DNA of 64,000 bases from Sorangium aterium (GTDB lineage: Bacteria; Myxococcota_A; Polyangia; Polyangiales; Polyangiaceae): assembly GCF_028368935.1 (NCBI RefSeq), contig NZ_JAQNDK010000002.1, forward strand, positions 2,356,001 through 2,420,000, written 5' to 3'. Shown piece after piece: positions 18,871 to 41,045 of this stretch. Positions within the stretch are counted from its first letter, which is position 1; the number at the start of each line of letters is the position of its first letter. A program made the translations under genes and the position numbers. The notes under the pieces were generated by a model. That model was given only the letters and a program-made list of their open reading frames with translations, was not told where the DNA came from and ran no database searches.

Positions 18871-19086
<216 letters not shown>

Positions 19087-19110
19087 GTGACCGGGCGCCC
19101 GGCTCAGTCC

Positions 19111-19440
19111 TCAGTATTTGTAAACAGCGGCGAAGATCGAGCGACGCATGATCTCGTTCGTCGTCGTCTCGCGCACCCACGCGGCGATCCCGGTCCCGTT
19201 CGGGCCGAAGCCCACCGTCGGCTCCCAGTGCTCGGCGGCGTTGTCGTCCTCCAGCGGGTGGGCCTCCGTCCATCCCTGCGCGGGCGACAGCTCGCTGGCA
19301 AAGATCGACCGGAGCGCGGCGGCTTTCTGGGTCCACACGGCGAGCCCCCGCCCGGCCCCATCCACGGCGATCTCGGGGCCGCTCACGCTGTCTTCGTCGG
19401 CCGAGAGCTTGTCGGCTGGCTGGAACGTCGTCCCCGCTCC
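19111..19440 (-). pseudogene. C-terminal remnant of a repeat-type extracellular protein
   Basis: An open frame of 110 residues begins right after an in-frame TGA, without a convincing start, and contains FQPADKLSADEDSV, GPEIAVDGAGRGLAVWTQ and GWTEAHPLEDDNA followed by GPNGTGIAAWVRETT. The two copies of the pattern G-x-G-x-(A/L)-A-V/A-W suggest beta-propeller-like blades as found in large secreted proteins. It looks like the end of a longer gene whose front has been lost. A GTG at 19386 could still allow expression of 91 residues. Confidence 0.5.
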
Positions 19441-21180: not shown

Positions 21181-21333
21181 GGGTGGCCCGCGGTGAGCCG
21201 CGCCGGGTCGCCGAGGACCGGGCGAACGCTCGTCCAGCACGAGGTCGAAGGCCACGGCCCCCGAACTGGACCCATCGGCTCGCACGGCCGCGCGACGTCC
21301 CCCTGTGGACCCGATCGACCGCTGGAAGCGGGC

Positions 21334-22491
21334 ATGGAGGAGCGCGCGCTCCTGCGGCAGCCTGCCGAGGTCATCCGGCGTGATCGTCGGAGATCGGAGG
21401 CGGCGCGCGGCACGCCGCCCGACGTGCGCTCATCCAACGAGCTCATGGCAGGACCGGAGCCAGCGAAGCCGTTCAGGGGAGCCATCCGGACCTCGGTGTC
21501 GACATCGACGGACGGGCTGGTCGCAGGACAGGAGTTCTCCCTCTTCGTCACGGTGCAGAACCCGTTCGAGGCGCCGCTCTCGCTGTGCCGCGTGAGCACG
21601 AGCCTGCCCGCCGAGCTCATCGATGTCGACCGGCAGTGGACAGAGCAGCGGATCGAGAGGCTCGAGGACCGACTCGCCGTGATCGAGGGCGCCGCGCGGG
21701 CGCTCGCGCCGGGCGGCGACTCCCTGGGCTCGCGGCTGCGCCGCGCCGTCCGGCGGCTGCTGCGGCGCCGCCCGCCCGGGCGCGGCGAGGCGCCGAGGGC
21801 GCCCGCGATCGCGCGCGATCTCCGCGGAGCAGGCGGCGAGGCCGCGCTCGCGGCGCTCCACCCGCCGCTCCGGCACAGCGCGGGCCTCCGGGGCCGGGGA
21901 CCCACGGCGGGCGCGTGGAGCGAGGACGGCGAGGAGGGGAGCACCTCGCCCGAGGGGCTCCTCGGCGACGACGCAGGCGCGGTCCGGGACGCCATCCTGT
22001 CGTCGGGGGCCCCGGATCCTCCCACGGTGCTCCAGGCCGGGAACTCGACGGCGCGGAGCTTCACCGTGCGATCGCGGCGCACGCTGTGGTTCCGCACCGC
22101 GTCGTACCGGTTGCTCATCGAGGTCGAGTACGAGATCGACGGCGCGAGCAACGTCGACACCATCGAGCACGTCCTCAAGGTGAGCTCGTCGCTGGCGAGC
22201 ATGATCTGCGGCGCCGTGCTCGGGGGCGTCGGGGGCTGGTTCGCCGCGCGGGGCGGCGCCGCGCCGCTCGACGTGGAGACCGGCTTCAGCCTCGCCGTGT
22301 CGCTCGTCCTGGTCGTGATGGCGGTCGTCCTGCTCGCGCGCAAGAGGGACGTGCAGCCCATCGTCGCGATCGAGGATTTCTGGGGCGGTGTCGCCGTCGG
22401 GTTCTTGATCGCCTATTCAGGACCGAGGCTCTTCGCGGGGCTCTTCGGTCTGCCCGCGCCGGCGCAGCCCGCGTCGAGCGCCCTCATCTGA
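21334..22491 (+). CDS. Membrane-anchored protein, first gene of the CHAT protease operon
   Basis: About 385 residues from the ATG at 21334. An internal ATG at 21445 is an alternative start and neither has a strong ribosome site. The N-terminal part (VSTSTDGLVAGQEFSLFVTV, QNPFEAPLSL, SLPAELIDVD) looks like an Ig-type beta domain. A basic Arg/Ala/Gly-rich disordered stretch follows, then a second beta segment (SRRTLWFRTASYRLLIEVEY). Three hydrophobic helices close the protein at about residues 287-305, 318-336 and 352-373. I do not recognise a family. Its position at the head of the operon suggests it anchors or senses for the downstream proteases at the inner membrane. Confidence 0.72.
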   Translation: MEERALLRQPAEVIRRDRRRSEAARGTPPDVRSSNELMAGPEPAKPFRGAIRTSVSTSTDGLVAGQEFSLFVTVQNPFEAPLSLCRVSTSLPAELIDVDRQWTEQRIERLEDRLAVIEGAARALAPGGDSLGSRLRRAVRRLLRRRPPGRGEAPRAPAIARDLRGAGGEAALAALHPPLRHSAGLRGRGPTAGAWSEDGEEGSTSPEGLLGDDAGAVRDAILSSGAPDPPTVLQAGNSTARSFTVRSRRTLWFRTASYRLLIEVEYEIDGASNVDTIEHVLKVSSSLASMICGAVLGGVGGWFAARGGAAPLDVETGFSLAVSLVLVVMAVVLLARKRDVQPIVAIEDFWGGVAVGFLIAYSGPRLFAGLFGLPAPAQPASSALI

Positions 22492-22596: not shown

Positions 22597-23976
22597 GTGT
22601 CCACTCTGCGTGCCAGGGCGACCGCCGAGCTCCAGTGTCGGATCGACGTGCTCCCGCGCGACGTCGCGCGGTTCGAGGCGGCCGCCGCGGCGAACACGCG
22701 AGGTTTCGGGATCCACAAGAGCCAGGTGCTGGCGCTGAAGATCCTCATGAACGAGCTGATCCAGCGCCAGAGAGGCATCCTGGAGCGGCTCGGAGCGGAC
22801 CTGTCCGACGCCGACTTCGCGGATGGCTTCGGCAAGCTCCTCGTCGAGATCGCGGGCGCGCACGGGGTGTGGAACATCTTTTCTCAGACGCTCGCGCAGC
22901 GGGAGCAGCCGGCGCTCGCCCCCCCGCTCGACGCGGCCGACCTCGTGGCCGCCGAGTGTTACCAGGCGTGCATGAACACGGCGCGCAACTGGGGCCTCGT
23001 CCCCCGCGAGGGGATGCGCGAGCCGCCGCTGGTCTGCCTGGAGGCGCACTACGGGCCGGTCGCCGTGAGCCGCCAGAACCCGCTCCGCGCCCTCCGCAGC
23101 TCGCTCCGGAGCTACCGCGACCTCCGGCTGCCGATACCGATCGTGCTCCTGCCGGCCGATCAGACCGAGTGCGCCTGGCTCCTTGTCATGCTCTGCCACG
23201 AGGTCGGCCACAACGTCGATCAGGATCTGGCGCTCTCGAGCGAGCTGACCAGGGCGCTGCTCCTCGGCACCGACGGGGAGATCCCGTCCGACCGGCAGGA
23301 GATCTGGTTCGGCTGGACCCGGGAGATCCTCGCCGACGCGATCGGTGTCCTCCTCGGCAACGCCGGCTTCGCGCTGGCGCTCGCGTCGCTGCAACTCGTG
23401 CTCGCGCCCGGGAGCCAGCAAGGCGAGCTTGACCGGCGCGATCCTCACCCGCACCCGATGATCCGCGTCCCGCTGCTCGCCGCGCTGCTGCGGCGGCTCG
23501 GGGTCGCGGCGCTCGCCGGCGCGGCCGACCAGATAGAGCAGGACTGGCGGGCGCTGCCCGCGCCGGCCTGGGTCGCGCCGTTCCTCGGCGACCTCGGCGC
23601 GATCGCGGGCACGTTCCTGGAGAGGAAGCTGGACGCGCTCGGCGGTCGCGCGCTCAGGGAGCTCCACCCGGACGTCGCGGCCGACGTGAAGCGGGCAGAC
23701 GCGCTCGCGCGCTTTCTCAGGAGCGGTGAGCTCCGCCCGGCGCCGGACAAACCCTCATATTTCCCCTACCGCCTCGTGCCGGTCGCGGCGCAGCTCGTGG
23801 TCGCCTCGGCGCCGTCTCCGGTCGAGCTCGGCGCCGTCCAGCGGCGATCAATGGAGTTCTTCGCGGCGATCCCGCGGCCGCCGATGCTGGCGGGCGCGGC
23901 GTCGCTGTCCCCGCAGCGCGCCGCGTCCTATGCGCGGATCGCGCGGTCGGTCGACTTCGCTGGAGATGGCGGATGA
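22597..23976 (+). CDS. Zincin-like HEVGH metalloprotease-type protein
   Basis: A 459-residue protein with GTG start 4 bases after GGAGGGG. The only family motif I see is LLVMLCHEVGHNVDQD (His201, Glu202, His205). It is followed about 40 residues later by WTREILADAIGVLLG, where Glu243 or Asp247 is placed to be the third zinc ligand, as in gluzincins. There is no signal peptide, so it should act in the cytoplasm. The rest is alpha-helical and unrecognised. Its stop codon overlaps the next gene (ATGA), so it is translationally coupled to the degenerate CHAT protein. Confidence 0.75.
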   Translation: MSTLRARATAELQCRIDVLPRDVARFEAAAAANTRGFGIHKSQVLALKILMNELIQRQRGILERLGADLSDADFADGFGKLLVEIAGAHGVWNIFSQTLAQREQPALAPPLDAADLVAAECYQACMNTARNWGLVPREGMREPPLVCLEAHYGPVAVSRQNPLRALRSSLRSYRDLRLPIPIVLLPADQTECAWLLVMLCHEVGHNVDQDLALSSELTRALLLGTDGEIPSDRQEIWFGWTREILADAIGVLLGNAGFALALASLQLVLAPGSQQGELDRRDPHPHPMIRVPLLAALLRRLGVAALAGAADQIEQDWRALPAPAWVAPFLGDLGAIAGTFLERKLDALGGRALRELHPDVAADVKRADALARFLRSGELRPAPDKPSYFPYRLVPVAAQLVVASAPSPVELGAVQRRSMEFFAAIPRPPMLAGAASLSPQRAASYARIARSVDFAGDGG

Positions 23977-25361
23977 CCACGAGGCCGAGCGCGCAGCTCT
24001 CTCGAACTCCAGAGATCCTCGTCCGCATCGCCCCGGTCCGCCCCGCGGAGCCGGTCACGCCGCGCGCGACCGGCCGCCGCGTGTGCCGGCGCTATCACGC
24101 GTGGATCTACACGAAGCTCGATATCTCCTCTCTGCTGCTCGGGGACCCCGGCGCGGTCGAGCCGGGCGGCGCGTCGCCGCTGCCCGAGATGGCGGGGCTG
24201 CCGCTCATCGGCCATGAAGAGATCTCCGTCACCTGGCTCAGCTACGCCGAGTATCTGAGCATGTTTTACGAGGGCGAGGAGGCCCTGCTCGAGCTGCGGC
24301 GCCGCCTCATCGGGTCGATCTCCCGCGGGCTCCGGGCGATCCTGCGGCTCCGGCCGCACGCGCCCCGGCGGCTGCGCATCTGGTGGTCGACCGAAACGCC
24401 CGAGCTCGACGAGCTTCCCTGGGAGATCCTCCTCCACGGCGAGCACCGCCCGCCGCGCCTCTCGATCGTGCGGGGGATCCCGGGGCGGGTCGTGCCGCCG
24501 CTCTCCCTGCGGGAGGGACAGCCGCTGCGCGTCGCCGTGGTCGACCCGACCGGCGGCGCGCCCGCCTCGCTCTCCGAGGCGCTGGAGGGCCTGGGCTCCG
24601 GCATCGAGGTCGCCTGGATCGAGGAGGACGACGCGCGCAAAGCGCTCTCCGCGGCGATCCAGGCGGGATTCGAGGTGATCCACGTGGTGGCCGACGGCAT
24701 GGTGCCGCTCGGCCTGGAGGGCCTCCTCGAGTTCTCGGGGGACGAGGACGACACGCTCTCCTCCCTGGAGCTCACTGCCATGCTGCGCGGGTCGAGCGCC
24801 ACGATCCTCTCGCTCACCCCGCCGGAGACTCCCCGCGTGGGCCACGGCGGCATGCCCGCCGTGTACCACGCGTTCGCGCACTTCGGCCATCAAAGCGGCG
24901 ATGGCCCCACGATCGCCGCCCAGCTCGGCCCCATGCATCCACGCGTGTACCGCGAGTTCTGGCGCGCGTTCTACGAGCGGCTCGCGGCGTCGCTCGACGT
25001 GGAGGACGCGATGATGGCGGCGTCGCAGCGCCCCCTCCTGACGCCCGTCGTTCTGTTCCTCCGGCACCGCTTCGGCCGGCAGTTCACCCGGCAGGGCGAC
25101 GACGCGCGGCGCTCTCCCACGTGGCCGACGCTCGGCGCGGGGCAGACCCCGGAGGGCGACGTGCCGCTCACGCCGGCGCAGGTGACCGCCGATCTCTCGT
25201 GCTCCCGCGACCTGCTCGACGCGGCGAAGACGCTGGAGGCCCGCTACGCGGCGCTCGGGCTCGAGTTCCCGGGCAAGGGCCTCATCGAGCGCGAGGGCCA
25301 GCGGCAGGCCGCCCTCGATGAGGCGCTCGATCAATCCCTGTCCGAGGACACGGAGCCATGA
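23973..25361 (+). CDS. Degenerate CHAT-domain protein (predicted inactive)
   Basis: A 462-residue protein. The CHAT fold is recognisable from ELDELPWEILLHGEH (residues 144-158), LRVAVVDPTGG and GFEVIHVVADGMV. The catalytic His expected before the Gly of that last motif is Asp241, and the Cys expected in the LSxC motif is Thr282 (ATILSLTPPETP). Both dyad residues are therefore missing. The N-terminal 130 residues are unrecognised. It overlaps both neighbours by ATGA. By analogy with paired active/inactive proteases, it may be a regulatory or scaffolding subunit for the intact CHAT protein that follows; this is inference. Confidence 0.78.
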   Translation: MTTRPSAQLSRTPEILVRIAPVRPAEPVTPRATGRRVCRRYHAWIYTKLDISSLLLGDPGAVEPGGASPLPEMAGLPLIGHEEISVTWLSYAEYLSMFYEGEEALLELRRRLIGSISRGLRAILRLRPHAPRRLRIWWSTETPELDELPWEILLHGEHRPPRLSIVRGIPGRVVPPLSLREGQPLRVAVVDPTGGAPASLSEALEGLGSGIEVAWIEEDDARKALSAAIQAGFEVIHVVADGMVPLGLEGLLEFSGDEDDTLSSLELTAMLRGSSATILSLTPPETPRVGHGGMPAVYHAFAHFGHQSGDGPTIAAQLGPMHPRVYREFWRAFYERLAASLDVEDAMMAASQRPLLTPVVLFLRHRFGRQFTRQGDDARRSPTWPTLGAGQTPEGDVPLTPAQVTADLSCSRDLLDAAKTLEARYAALGLEFPGKGLIEREGQRQAALDEALDQSLSEDTEP

Positions 25362-27082
25362 GAAACCCCGAGTTCGTTGTCGACATCGAGCCTGGCGGGG
25401 GCTCGCGCCTGCGGCTGTGCGTCCACGCCAGCCACCTCGCGCCCATCGATGACGAGCTCGAACGACCCTTTCCGAGCTTCCCGCCCGCGGAGCTCGACGA
25501 GCTGCGGAGCGGCTACGGGTCGGAGCAGATGACCGAGTCCCTGGCCGAGCAGGTCACCGGCTGGCTGCTCCAGAACGATCTCCGCGGCCACCTGGGCACC
25601 GCGGTGAACGCGGCGACTCAGCCCTTCCGGATCGTCTTCCGGCCGCACCCGGCGGTGCTTCCGTACCTGCACGACGTCCCCTTCGAGCTGCTCAAGCTCG
25701 ACGCCGACCGGCTCGCGCTGCACCCCTTGGTACGGGGGATCGTCCACTCGTACAAGCGCCACCGCGGGGTGGCCGCGCCGCCGGCGCTGCGCTGGAGCTG
25801 GCCTTTCCGCGTGCTCTTCGTCCGCACGAACCCGAAGGACCTCGGCGGGGACGTGCCGCCCGTGCTGCCCATCCGCGATCGCGTCGTCGCGATCGCGCGC
25901 GGGTGCGGGCTCGCCGACGTCGTGGAGGTCGCGGTGCTGAGCAGCGAGGCGGGCGCAGGCGGGCCCGTCACCTACGATGCCTTCCGCGCCGAGCTGCGCA
26001 ACGTGCGCTACGATCTCCTCGTTTACCTGGGGCACGGCGACCTCCAGGAGGTCGGGTTCGAGGGGTTGCCCCCGATCGGCGTCCTCCTGTTCGAGCTCGA
26101 CGGCAGCGACTTCGCCAACCCGATCCGCGCCGATCAGCTCCGGAGCGAGCTCCTGAACCGGCCCGTGCCGGTCGTGGTGCTCGCGGGCTGCATGACCGCG
26201 GCGGGCGAGGTGCTGCGCGAGCGGCTGCCGCAGTGGATGCGCGGCAACCAGAACGTGGCGCACTCGCTGATCCACGGCGAGTCCGGCGTCCAGTGCGCGA
26301 TCGGGATGCGTCACCGGCTGGAGGCGGCGGACGCCGAGCGCTTCCTCCAGGCGTTCGTCCTCAGCCTGCTCAAGCAGTGCCCGGGCGACGTCGAACGGGC
26401 CGTGCGGGCGGGACGCGAGGAGATGTTCGCGCAGAAGCCGTACCCGCCCAGCTGGTCGGCGCCCGTCCTCTTCCGCGCGGCGAACGTGGAGCCGCTGTTC
26501 GACTTCCTGTGCACCGCGCCGACCGCGTTCGACCCGCTCGACGAGCACGACCAGGCGCTGCGGGAGAAGTTCTGGAAGAAGCGGAGCGAGCTGCCGGCCG
26601 CGCTGCCCCCGGAGACCCGACATTTCTCGAGCTTACTGCTCGATACGGTGGAATCAACGTTCCTCGACCGCAGGCGGCAGGGGGGGGCCACCCTGGTGTG
26701 GCCCGCGCGGAACGAGGCGAAGCCCGGCGATACCGTGAAGGTGTCTGTCCAGCTCATGGAGTCGGTCTCCGTGTCGCGCCTGGAAGGACGGCTGTCCTTC
26801 GCCGAGGCGATCACGGTGCGGGCAGCCCGGCCGGCGTCGGGGCTCAAGGCTGCGGGGCTGCGCGCGTTCTTCGCCCTGGATCAACCGGGCGAGGTGCGGT
26901 TCGTCGCGTCCGCCCCTTCCGGAGAGCCGGTGACGCTCGGCGCTGGTCCGCTGTTCGAGGTCGACCTGACGCTGCCCGGCGCGTTCCCCGCCGTGTACGA
27001 GTTGCGGGTTGACGCGCTCGCATCCGAACCGAGGTTGTTCATGTGCGGCTGGAACAATGCGATCGTTGTGCCGCTGCCATGA
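25358..27082 (+). CDS. CHAT-domain cysteine protease with C-terminal Ig/cohesin-like domain
   Basis: A 574-residue protein. The caspase-like CHAT domain has both catalytic residues: His226 in YDLLVYLGHGDLQ and Cys278 in VVVLAGCMTAAGE. Other CHAT features are the upstream LHDVPFELLKLD (family LPWELL position) and the exposed-loop segment VAHSLIHGESGVQCAIGMRH with RFLQAFVLSLL. Residues from about 430 onward form an all-beta domain (KPGDTVKVSVQLMESVSVSR, LEGRLSFAEAITV) similar to cohesin/Ig modules. CHAT proteases are clan CD enzymes that usually cut a specific partner after activation. The next two genes are the natural substrate candidates. Confidence 0.88.
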   Translation: MRNPEFVVDIEPGGGSRLRLCVHASHLAPIDDELERPFPSFPPAELDELRSGYGSEQMTESLAEQVTGWLLQNDLRGHLGTAVNAATQPFRIVFRPHPAVLPYLHDVPFELLKLDADRLALHPLVRGIVHSYKRHRGVAAPPALRWSWPFRVLFVRTNPKDLGGDVPPVLPIRDRVVAIARGCGLADVVEVAVLSSEAGAGGPVTYDAFRAELRNVRYDLLVYLGHGDLQEVGFEGLPPIGVLLFELDGSDFANPIRADQLRSELLNRPVPVVVLAGCMTAAGEVLRERLPQWMRGNQNVAHSLIHGESGVQCAIGMRHRLEAADAERFLQAFVLSLLKQCPGDVERAVRAGREEMFAQKPYPPSWSAPVLFRAANVEPLFDFLCTAPTAFDPLDEHDQALREKFWKKRSELPAALPPETRHFSSLLLDTVESTFLDRRRQGGATLVWPARNEAKPGDTVKVSVQLMESVSVSRLEGRLSFAEAITVRAARPASGLKAAGLRAFFALDQPGEVRFVASAPSGEPVTLGAGPLFEVDLTLPGAFPAVYELRVDALASEPRLFMCGWNNAIVVPLP

Positions 27083-27100
27083 GGCCGCGCCGGGGTCGAT

Positions 27101-27490
27101 ATGAAAGCGATCAAGCCGGAGGAGCCGACGCAACCCTCGTTGCTGGAGGCTCACCCCGAGCTGCGGGCGCTCCTTGACCGGTCCGAGCTCTTCCGCCGTA
27201 CCGAGGAGCGCTATCGCATCGAGATCGAAGGTCAAACGCTCTACCTCGTGCGGGGGGACACGCTCGGCTCGCGCGAGGAGCTGCTCATCGACGCGCTCGT
27301 CCGCGGCTCCGCGCCCGAGAGCGCCGACCCGCTCAGCCGCGCGCTCTTCCTTGAGCTGCCCGGACACCTTCAGGAGGTGATCCGCGGTCTCACGCGATCG
27401 GAACCACAACCGTCACCCAAGAGCCCGGGTGCTCCGGGCCAAGGAGAATCGCCATGGCCATCACCGATCCGGCCATCGCGCAGAAGGTAG
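27101..27490 (+). CDS. Small protein sharing a motif with the downstream metalloprotease
   Basis: A 129-residue soluble protein, 18 bases after the CHAT gene and overlapping the next gene by 37 bases. Residues 36-66 (ERYRIEIEGQTLYLVRGDTL, then GSREELLIDAL) align with residues 20-47 of the metalloprotease (TFELDGKLMYVAEGDLLLEE). The shared pattern is a hydrophobic-acidic-Gly turn, then Tyr, Gly-Asp and a Glu-rich helix. The C-terminus is Pro/Ser/Arg-rich. No known family is recognised. A role as inhibitor, adaptor or cleaved substrate is suggested only by the shared motif and location. Confidence 0.7.
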   Translation: MKAIKPEEPTQPSLLEAHPELRALLDRSELFRRTEERYRIEIEGQTLYLVRGDTLGSREELLIDALVRGSAPESADPLSRALFLELPGHLQEVIRGLTRSEPQPSPKSPGAPGQGESPWPSPIRPSRRR

Positions 27491-28254
27491 GGGAGCTCAA
27501 GACGAGGCTCCCCACGTTCGAGCTCGATGGGAAGCTGATGTATGTCGCGGAGGGCGACCTCCTGCTGGAAGAGGAGCAGCTCGCCGACTACGTGCCTCAC
27601 GCCGCCAACGTGGAGCCGCCCAACCTGGACGCCGGCCCCGGAGGGGAGGGGCTGGTCGGCATCCTGCAGGACGGCAGGCCGCTGCGCTGGCGTCCGGGGT
27701 TCGTGATCACGTACTGCGTGCTCAGGGCGACCTTCCGGGACGAGCGCCAGTACGCGACGGTGCGCGCCAACATGCTGACGGCCACGCGCGACTGGGAGGA
27801 GACCTGCGGCGTGTCGTTCCGCCACGTGGCCGAGCTCGACGGGAGCACGAGCCGCCCCGCGGAGGTCGTGTTCCCGGTGCGGCTCAACCTCTCCGGCGGG
27901 GCTTTCATCGCCGCGTCCTTCTTCCCGAACGACCCGGTCGGGAGAAGGCAGCTCCTGATCAATCCCTCCTATTTCTCGCCCTCGCTCGGGTTCAACCCCG
28001 TCGGCGTGCTCCGGCACGAGCTGGGTCACGTCCTCGGCTTCCGGCATGAGCACATCCGGAGCGGCGCTCCGCCCGCCTGCCCCCGGGAGGACATGTCGCA
28101 GACCATCGACCTCACGGCCTACGATCCCAGGTCGGTGATGCACTATTTCTGCGGCGGCGTGGGGAACCCCGAGCTCGAGATCACCGAGGTCGACGTGCAG
28201 GGGTCGCAGCGGGTATACGGCATGCCGCTCTCCAGCTTCCGCCTGGTGGCTTGA
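27454..28254 (+). CDS. Astacin-like metzincin metalloprotease
   Basis: A 266-residue protein with AAGGAG before the ATG. The extended zinc motif LRHELGHVLGFRHEHIR gives His188, Glu189, His192 and His198 followed by Glu199, as in astacins. The Met-turn is PRSVMHYF (Met229, Tyr231). There is no signal peptide. The first 50 residues carry the motif shared with the upstream small protein and may be a propeptide or docking segment. The catalytic core starts near FVITYCVLRATFRDERQY. A cytoplasmic astacin-like enzyme would need to be held inactive, which fits control by the preceding CHAT protease; this is inference. Confidence 0.87.
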   Translation: MAITDPAIAQKVGELKTRLPTFELDGKLMYVAEGDLLLEEEQLADYVPHAANVEPPNLDAGPGGEGLVGILQDGRPLRWRPGFVITYCVLRATFRDERQYATVRANMLTATRDWEETCGVSFRHVAELDGSTSRPAEVVFPVRLNLSGGAFIAASFFPNDPVGRRQLLINPSYFSPSLGFNPVGVLRHELGHVLGFRHEHIRSGAPPACPREDMSQTIDLTAYDPRSVMHYFCGGVGNPELEITEVDVQGSQRVYGMPLSSFRLVA

Positions 28255-28519: not shown

Positions 28520-34264
<5,745 letters not shown>

Positions 34265-34409
34265 GGTCCCTCCGGTCGCGGCCGCCTCGCGTGGCAGTTG
34301 CGGGCGAAACGTCCTCATCCGGATCGATGTCGCCGGCGCAGCGAGTCCGGCGGTCGAGCTTGCCCCGCGCCGCGGAGAGAGCTCGATGAGGTGGCCGGCC
34401 CGGCTCTGG

Positions 34410-34478
34410 GGCAGCCAGCCGCGCTGCCCTATCGCTTCTTCTTCGGGCAGCCAACCTCGCTGCCCATCGCTTCTTCTA
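34410..34478. repeat. Two-copy 33-bp direct repeat
   Basis: GGCAGCCAGCCGCGCTGCCC followed by TATCGCTTCTTCTT is repeated as GGCAGCCAACCTCGCTGCCC followed by ATCGCTTCTTCT. It lies upstream of the copy 1 kinase start and is read antisense to it. Confidence 0.7.
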
Positions 34479-34987
34479 TAGAGTCGTCTCCGCCCCTCGT
34501 CCGGCACAAGCGTGTACCCAGCGCACCTCGCGGCGCGCGTGCCGCCAGCCGCCCTGCCGGACGAGCATGGCATCAAGCCAGCTGGCGAAGGGAGCGAATG
34601 CAGAGGGCGCTCTGGAGCAGAGGGCGCCTGGGACAGAACGCGCGCGGCGCAGCGCAGCGGGCGCTCCGGCCTGGCCTTGTGGCGTCAGCCGCTGCAGGAC
34701 TGGGCCGCTCGGCGTGCCCTGCCCGGTCCCGCTTCGCTCTTGCCTCGTGCGCTGCCGGCCTCGCCTCGCCGCCGTGCGTGCGACGACGGGGCTCTTCTTC
34801 GTCGCCGGCCTGACCCTCGGCGCGCAGGGCCGCGCCGAGGCCCCGAGGCTCGATCGAGGCGGTCGCCGGCGCCGGAGGGCAGGGGGCGAACCCGGACGTG
34901 CTGGGCTCCGGCGGAGACGACGGGGAGTCGCCGGGATTTCCGCCGTGAGGGCGTAGGGCGGCGCGAGAGGGGAGGCGGAACGGGGAT

Positions 34988-35236: not shown

Positions 35237-40903
<5,667 letters not shown>

Positions 40904-41045
40904 AGCCCCTCCGGTCGCTGCCGCCTCGCGCGGTGGTTTCGGGCGAGCGGTCACGCACCGTCAGATCGACGCGTCACGTGGCGCGCGGAGCCGGACGCCC
41001 ACGGCGGCCCGGCGCCGCGCCGAGGGGCGGGGGCGCGGTGCCCGC

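Follow-up and report, generated by a model that had tools for sequence, protein, structure and literature searches.

A CHAT protein lacking the catalytic dyad is encoded beside an intact CHAT protease in a metallopeptidase operon of Sorangium aterium

The window analysed here, 64,000 nucleotides from the soil myxobacterium Sorangium aterium (assembly GCF_028368935.1, contig NZ_JAQNDK010000002.1, positions 2,356,001 to 2,420,000), carries on its plus strand a five-gene operon (22597-28254) that includes a dead and a live CHAT gene. The operon opens with a gene (22597..23976, plus strand, GTG start) for an M48-like gluzincin metallopeptidase of 459 residues, P0003, which has HEVGH at residues 201-205 and Glu243-x3-Asp247. 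Its end overlaps, by ATGA, the start of the gene for a pseudo-CHAT protein of 462 residues, P0001 (23973..25361, plus strand), which keeps LPWE (148-151) and His237 and has Asp241 for the catalytic His and Pro284 for the Cys. A second ATGA (25358..25361, plus strand) joins the stop of the pseudo-CHAT gene to the start of the gene for an intact CHAT protease of 574 residues, P0002 (25358..27082, plus strand), with His226 in GHGD and Cys278 in AGC and, at its C-terminus, a cohesin-like domain (26684-27079, plus strand, residues about 443-574). Two plus-strand genes complete the operon, one for a small protein of 129 residues (27101..27490) that resembles the N-terminal segment of the protein encoded after it, and one for that protein, a matrixin-type (metzincin) metallopeptidase of 266 residues (27454..28254) with the motif HELGHVLGFRH and the Met-turn SVMHY.

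The matrixin has all of the HExxHxxGxxH motif, the Met-turn and a profile match to Peptidase_M10 (30.7 bits against a Pfam cut-off of 24). It shares a G-x-Y-x3-GD-x-L pattern with the small protein, and in Sorangium cellulosum So0008-312 (G179, locus L060) the two are fused in a single open reading frame; no small protein was found in the G177 operon. The small protein is perhaps a free-standing propeptide-like domain. Located 5' of the operon, at 21193-22491, is a gene for a protein with hydrophobic C-terminal segments that is kept in L060 and had no match upstream in loci L019 or L058; its membership of the operon is uncertain.

P0001 belongs to the CHAT family (PF12770; 27.1 bits, Pfam cut-off 24) and keeps the ELPWEIL motif at residues 147-153; its orthologue in G098 gave no Pfam CHAT match. 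The dead and live proteins could not be usefully aligned with each other by BLASTP or HMM-HMM comparison, and their columns were matched by means of a multi-CHAT alignment of 25 rows, live and dead domains together, in which three rows were spurious antisense translations from the genome's own CHAT loci and were ignored. In this alignment Asp241 occupies the catalytic His column and Pro284 the Cys column, with Thr282 two residues before the latter. The preliminary description had proposed two coupled CHAT reading frames here, the upstream one bearing ELPWEIL, with Asp in place of His and Thr in place of Cys. Coupling, family and motif are borne out, as is the substitution of Asp for His; the Thr assignment is replaced by Pro284, and the loss of the His-Cys dyad of active CHAT proteases stands in 5/5 orthologues. 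The dead reading also survived a search for an intact His and Cys elsewhere in the protein, since H237 and H365 are the only invariant His residues among the five orthologues and no Cys is invariant. H237 is a strand residue that many live CHATs also have, and it precedes the lost catalytic His by four positions. There are nine CHAT matches in the 13.5-Mb genome, and P0001 is the sole one without a dyad; P0002 and the remaining seven have the His of a GHG motif and a Cys after the next strand.

The AlphaFold model of P0001, built from five sequences, is weak (pLDDT 52, pTM 0.50). Its first Foldseek match is the SAVED-CHAT structure 8tl0 (E 5e-4, prob 1.0, TM 0.23, at a model pLDDT of 52), and Craspase TPR-CHAT (7zoq, E 4.5e-3) is also among the top matches. 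The order of β-strands and α-helices is compatible with a caspase-type fold, core strand and helix order are alike in the weak P0001 and P0002 models, and two helices (401-458) form the C-terminus of P0001. A PDB sequence search returned no relative. When 22 CHAT domains were placed in a tree, live and dead copies did not behave as close paralogues, and the tree is compatible with a single origin of the dead members as well as with several. Its long branches and absence of grouping led us to reject the idea that the dead CHAT arose by recent duplication of the live one.

P0002 matches the CHAT family at 48.0 bits (PF12770, cut-off 24), and His226 and Cys278 are kept in 5/5 orthologues (49-84% identity to P0002), so that the intact dyad and C-terminal β-domain previously ascribed to the downstream protein are both upheld. 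On this basis P0002 is predicted to be an active CHAT protease. Its AlphaFold model (five sequences) is weak overall (pLDDT 59, pTM 0.36); the C-terminal domain was modelled confidently, scoring between 84 and 91 in the majority of ten-residue blocks, and it matches cohesins (Foldseek E 3e-10, target TM 0.74). A search of the genome for dockerins found none, and classical cohesin-dockerin pairing is thus unlikely for P0002. We note that this CHAT protease bears a cohesin-like domain although its genome lacks detectable dockerins.

Orthologous operons are present in four further genomes (G179, G177, G098 and G166), making five with the window; G179 and G177 belong to the same genus as the window. 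When species genomes were scanned with a DNA pattern, one further locus was recovered, that of S. cellulosum So0008-312. Among the P0001 orthologues, which are 43-81% identical to P0001, Asp241 and Pro284 are kept in 5/5, the ATGA overlap between dead and live genes is kept in 5/5 operons, and the reading frames are intact in all five genomes. G098 and G166 additionally have a calcineurin-type phosphoesterase gene downstream. No pseudo-CHAT match was found in three other genomes of the genus that were searched (G176, G178 and G143), and the operon therefore appears to be accessory.

The pairing of a dead with a live CHAT, conserved in these operons, recurs at two more distant loci. In G300 (L063) a live CHAT-NTPase is followed by a 1768-residue dead CHAT protein and then by an HExxH peptidase, with four-base overlaps; the 1768-residue protein ends in a CHAT-like domain that has LPWE and no dyad. 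G107 (L078, L020) has the same gene order and four-base overlaps, with a subtilase gene upstream. Both dead CHATs share a polypeptide with an NTPase and a helical region, and their catalytic columns hold Ala and Pro in G107 and Thr and Leu in G300. They were recognised by gene position, LPWE motif and alignment rather than by a Pfam CHAT match, and their putative assignment is less certain than that of P0001. A profile of the NTPase-fused dead CHAT recovered its own member and no further copy across 377 genomes of the phylum. With these two included, dead and live CHAT genes overlap by four bases in 7/7 loci, the overlap being GTGA in G107 and G300.

Besides the CHAT pair, the wider module contains an M48-like HExxH metallopeptidase and a matrixin and, in some cases, a calcineurin-type phosphoesterase. 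Among relatives of P0003 the HExGH and ExxxD columns are invariant, corresponding to the HExxH motif and third ligand of M48-like gluzincins. P0003 itself matched no Pfam family, the M48 profile included, and its orthologue P0009 reached 12.5 bits (E 0.13) against the M48 cut-off of 20.3. HExxH relatives were found beside caspase, CHAT or TIR-SLOG genes. In three loci (L086; L087, 7289-11068; L088, 6824-9961) the M48-like HExxH peptidase is fused to a calcineurin-type phosphoesterase, an architecture that is apparently undescribed; near these fusions lie TIR-SLOG genes (L087 and L088), a CHAT gene (L087) and a subtilase gene (L088). In L062 (6644-11782) a caspase C14 gene is divergent to a pair encoding an HExxH peptidase and a matrixin; the locus thus has the two metallopeptidase types of the window, and a true caspase where the window has the CHAT pair. 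Conflict-like contexts are not the only ones in which the HExxH family occurs. One relative from another context, in L022 (5083-7917), adjoins an SPFH-like gene and has no protease alongside.

TIR, SLOG, caspase, STAND and phosphoesterase domains are part of the vocabulary of bacterial conflict systems (PMC7159879, PMC8195603). Since HExxH relatives lie beside caspase, CHAT or TIR-SLOG genes, the neighbouring genes, on which this reading is based, suggest that the operon is a conflict (defence or cell-death) system. No PADLOC model matched, and plasmid and phage searches found no relatives on such elements.

On the reading that we favour, held with about as much confidence as doubt, the pseudo-CHAT is a regulatory pseudoprotease subunit of the live CHAT within a multi-protease conflict module, much as c-FLIP is of caspase-8. 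A heterodimer of the two is plausible from gene arrangement, as their genes are neighbours, overlapping by four bases, in 7/7 loci and stay together in G166, where the HExxH gene has moved. Dead and live CHAT would be made in near-equal amounts and would form a heterodimer, or a mixed oligomer, within which the dead member could provide allosteric contacts that set or gate the activity and substrate choice of the live one, as in c-FLIP-L/caspase-8. Upon a trigger, the live CHAT might then start a cascade of proteolysis in which the HExxH gluzincin and the matrixin take part; the cohesin-like domain of P0002 might recruit a substrate or partner. The complete proposal, of an obligate dead/live CHAT heterodimer steering a gluzincin and matrixin cascade in a conflict module, as a bacterial counterpart of c-FLIP/caspase-8, is offered tentatively and seems to us more doubtful than probable.

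Pairings of inactive with active caspase-fold proteins are known, and the pair described here is a variation on one found in bacterial conflict systems. Of the precedents that have been tested, the nearest is the inactive caspase-8 homologue c-FLIP-L, which is encoded beside caspase-8 and forms with it a catalytically productive heterodimer of altered specificity (PMC11121540); there, as by prediction in the window, an inactive caspase-fold protein that has lost its catalytic residues and kept its fold lies beside an active sister, whereas c-FLIP-L depends on animal death-domain recruitment and the window holds a bacterial CHAT operon with a putative heterodimer. Bacterial examples are the VMAP ternary conflict systems, in which inactive caspase domains are paired with active ones (Kaur et al. 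2020, PMC7159879) and dominant-negative or peptide-binding roles have been suggested for the inactive domains (PMC7159879). Like these VMAP/MoxR-vWA systems of multicellular-type bacteria, the window appears to pair catalytically inactive and active caspase-fold domains; unlike them, it has dead and live CHAT in separate coupled genes together with two metallopeptidases, and a Pfam scan found no MoxR, vWA or VMAP domain in the operon proteins. Craspase TPR-CHAT (Csx29) and SAVED-CHAT of type III CRISPR, the best structural matches of the weak pseudo-CHAT model, exemplify live CHATs gated by a partner or by assembly. In the window, by contrast, the regulator appears to be another CHAT that lacks the dyad, and the Pfam scan found CHAT and no TPR or SAVED domain in P0001 or P0002. 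The NTPase-fused live and dead CHATs of G107 and G300, followed by an HExxH peptidase, resemble the STAND/TPR-CHAT proteins of multicellular bacteria, from which the window pair differs in having no NTPase or TPR and in the cohesin-like domain of its live member.

Gene arrangement also makes the HExxH peptidase a serious alternative partner. In 6/7 loci the pseudo-CHAT gene adjoins the HExxH gene: the two abut in L058 and overlap in the window, L019, L060, G107 and G300, and in the last two of these loci the genes run live CHAT, dead CHAT, HExxH, with four-base overlaps. The HExxH family is, moreover, the element common to the caspase, CHAT and TIR contexts. P0001 could then be an adaptor or inhibitor, either presenting substrates to the gluzincin or holding it inactive, with the live CHAT releasing the gluzincin by cleaving the pseudo-CHAT. 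We consider this fairly unlikely, because in G166 (L059) the CHAT pair is still coupled although the HExxH gene is found behind the phosphoesterase, and because some HExxH relatives have no CHAT found nearby. The rate at which P0001 evolves bears on two further possibilities. Between the window and L060, the pseudo-CHAT has a dN/dS of 0.55 and the live CHAT one of 0.36; for the pseudo-CHAT the ratio reaches about 1 in some distant pairs. These values come from a simple Nei-Gojobori procedure and are biased by high GC. Faster evolution than the live partner might be expected of a decoy or substrate that retains the fold and whose engagement by an invader's protease inhibitor or by the live CHAT triggers the system, and Kaur et al. 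suggest that enzyme domains without activity act as decoys or dominant negatives in bacterial conflict systems (PMC7159879). The pattern of conservation, however, is unlike that of a fast-changing decoy surface: the two 15-residue windows of P0001 that rank highest lie in the last CHAT strand (360-374, VLFLRHRFGRQFTRQ) and in the former His loop (240-254, ADGMVPLGLEGLLEF), where the Asp is fixed. As strict coupling to the live CHAT also suggests stoichiometry, a decoy is in our view distinctly improbable.

The elevated dN/dS, together with the loss of both catalytic residues, could also mark a functionless, decaying duplicate. We disfavour this strongly and regard it as extremely unlikely, since the open frame, the fixed substitutions and the ATGA overlap have been kept in five genomes at 43-81% identity, which argues against chance or decay, and about 25% of pseudo-CHAT positions are invariant, with clear hotspots. 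P0001 is thus a constrained, faster-evolving protein. Catalysis by re-assigned residues such as Asp241 and Thr/Ser282 is very unlikely. All five orthologues share Asp241 and have Thr or Ser at position 282, but the dead CHATs of G107 and G300 have no conserved hydroxyl residue there (Asp-Val-Pro and Glu-Ala-Leu), no Cys of the pseudo-CHAT is invariant, and its former Cys loop (275-290) is conserved at the average level, whereas in the live partner a Cys-containing window ranks top.

Pseudoprotease control of caspases is mainly known from animals, and a role of the pseudo-CHAT as regulatory subunit of the live CHAT, if confirmed, would extend this principle to bacteria. It would also offer a compact operon, amenable to genetics, for studying the gating of a live caspase-fold protein by a dead one. 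The finding further draws attention to a metallopeptidase family, as yet unclassified, that turns up repeatedly with caspase, CHAT, TIR and phosphoesterase domains. A literature search, in which subscription papers were thinly covered, found neither a dead/live CHAT pairing nor this HExxH family described.

Elsewhere in the window, a minus-strand tandem of two very large open reading frames lies at 28520-34576 and 35237-40954. The former encodes a Ser/Thr kinase, an nSTAND1 NTPase and many WD40 repeats, as identified with Pfam, and the latter opens with a similar kinase-like sequence. On the plus strand, a low-complexity open reading frame at 18945-19151 consists of repeated VNDHDHDH units.
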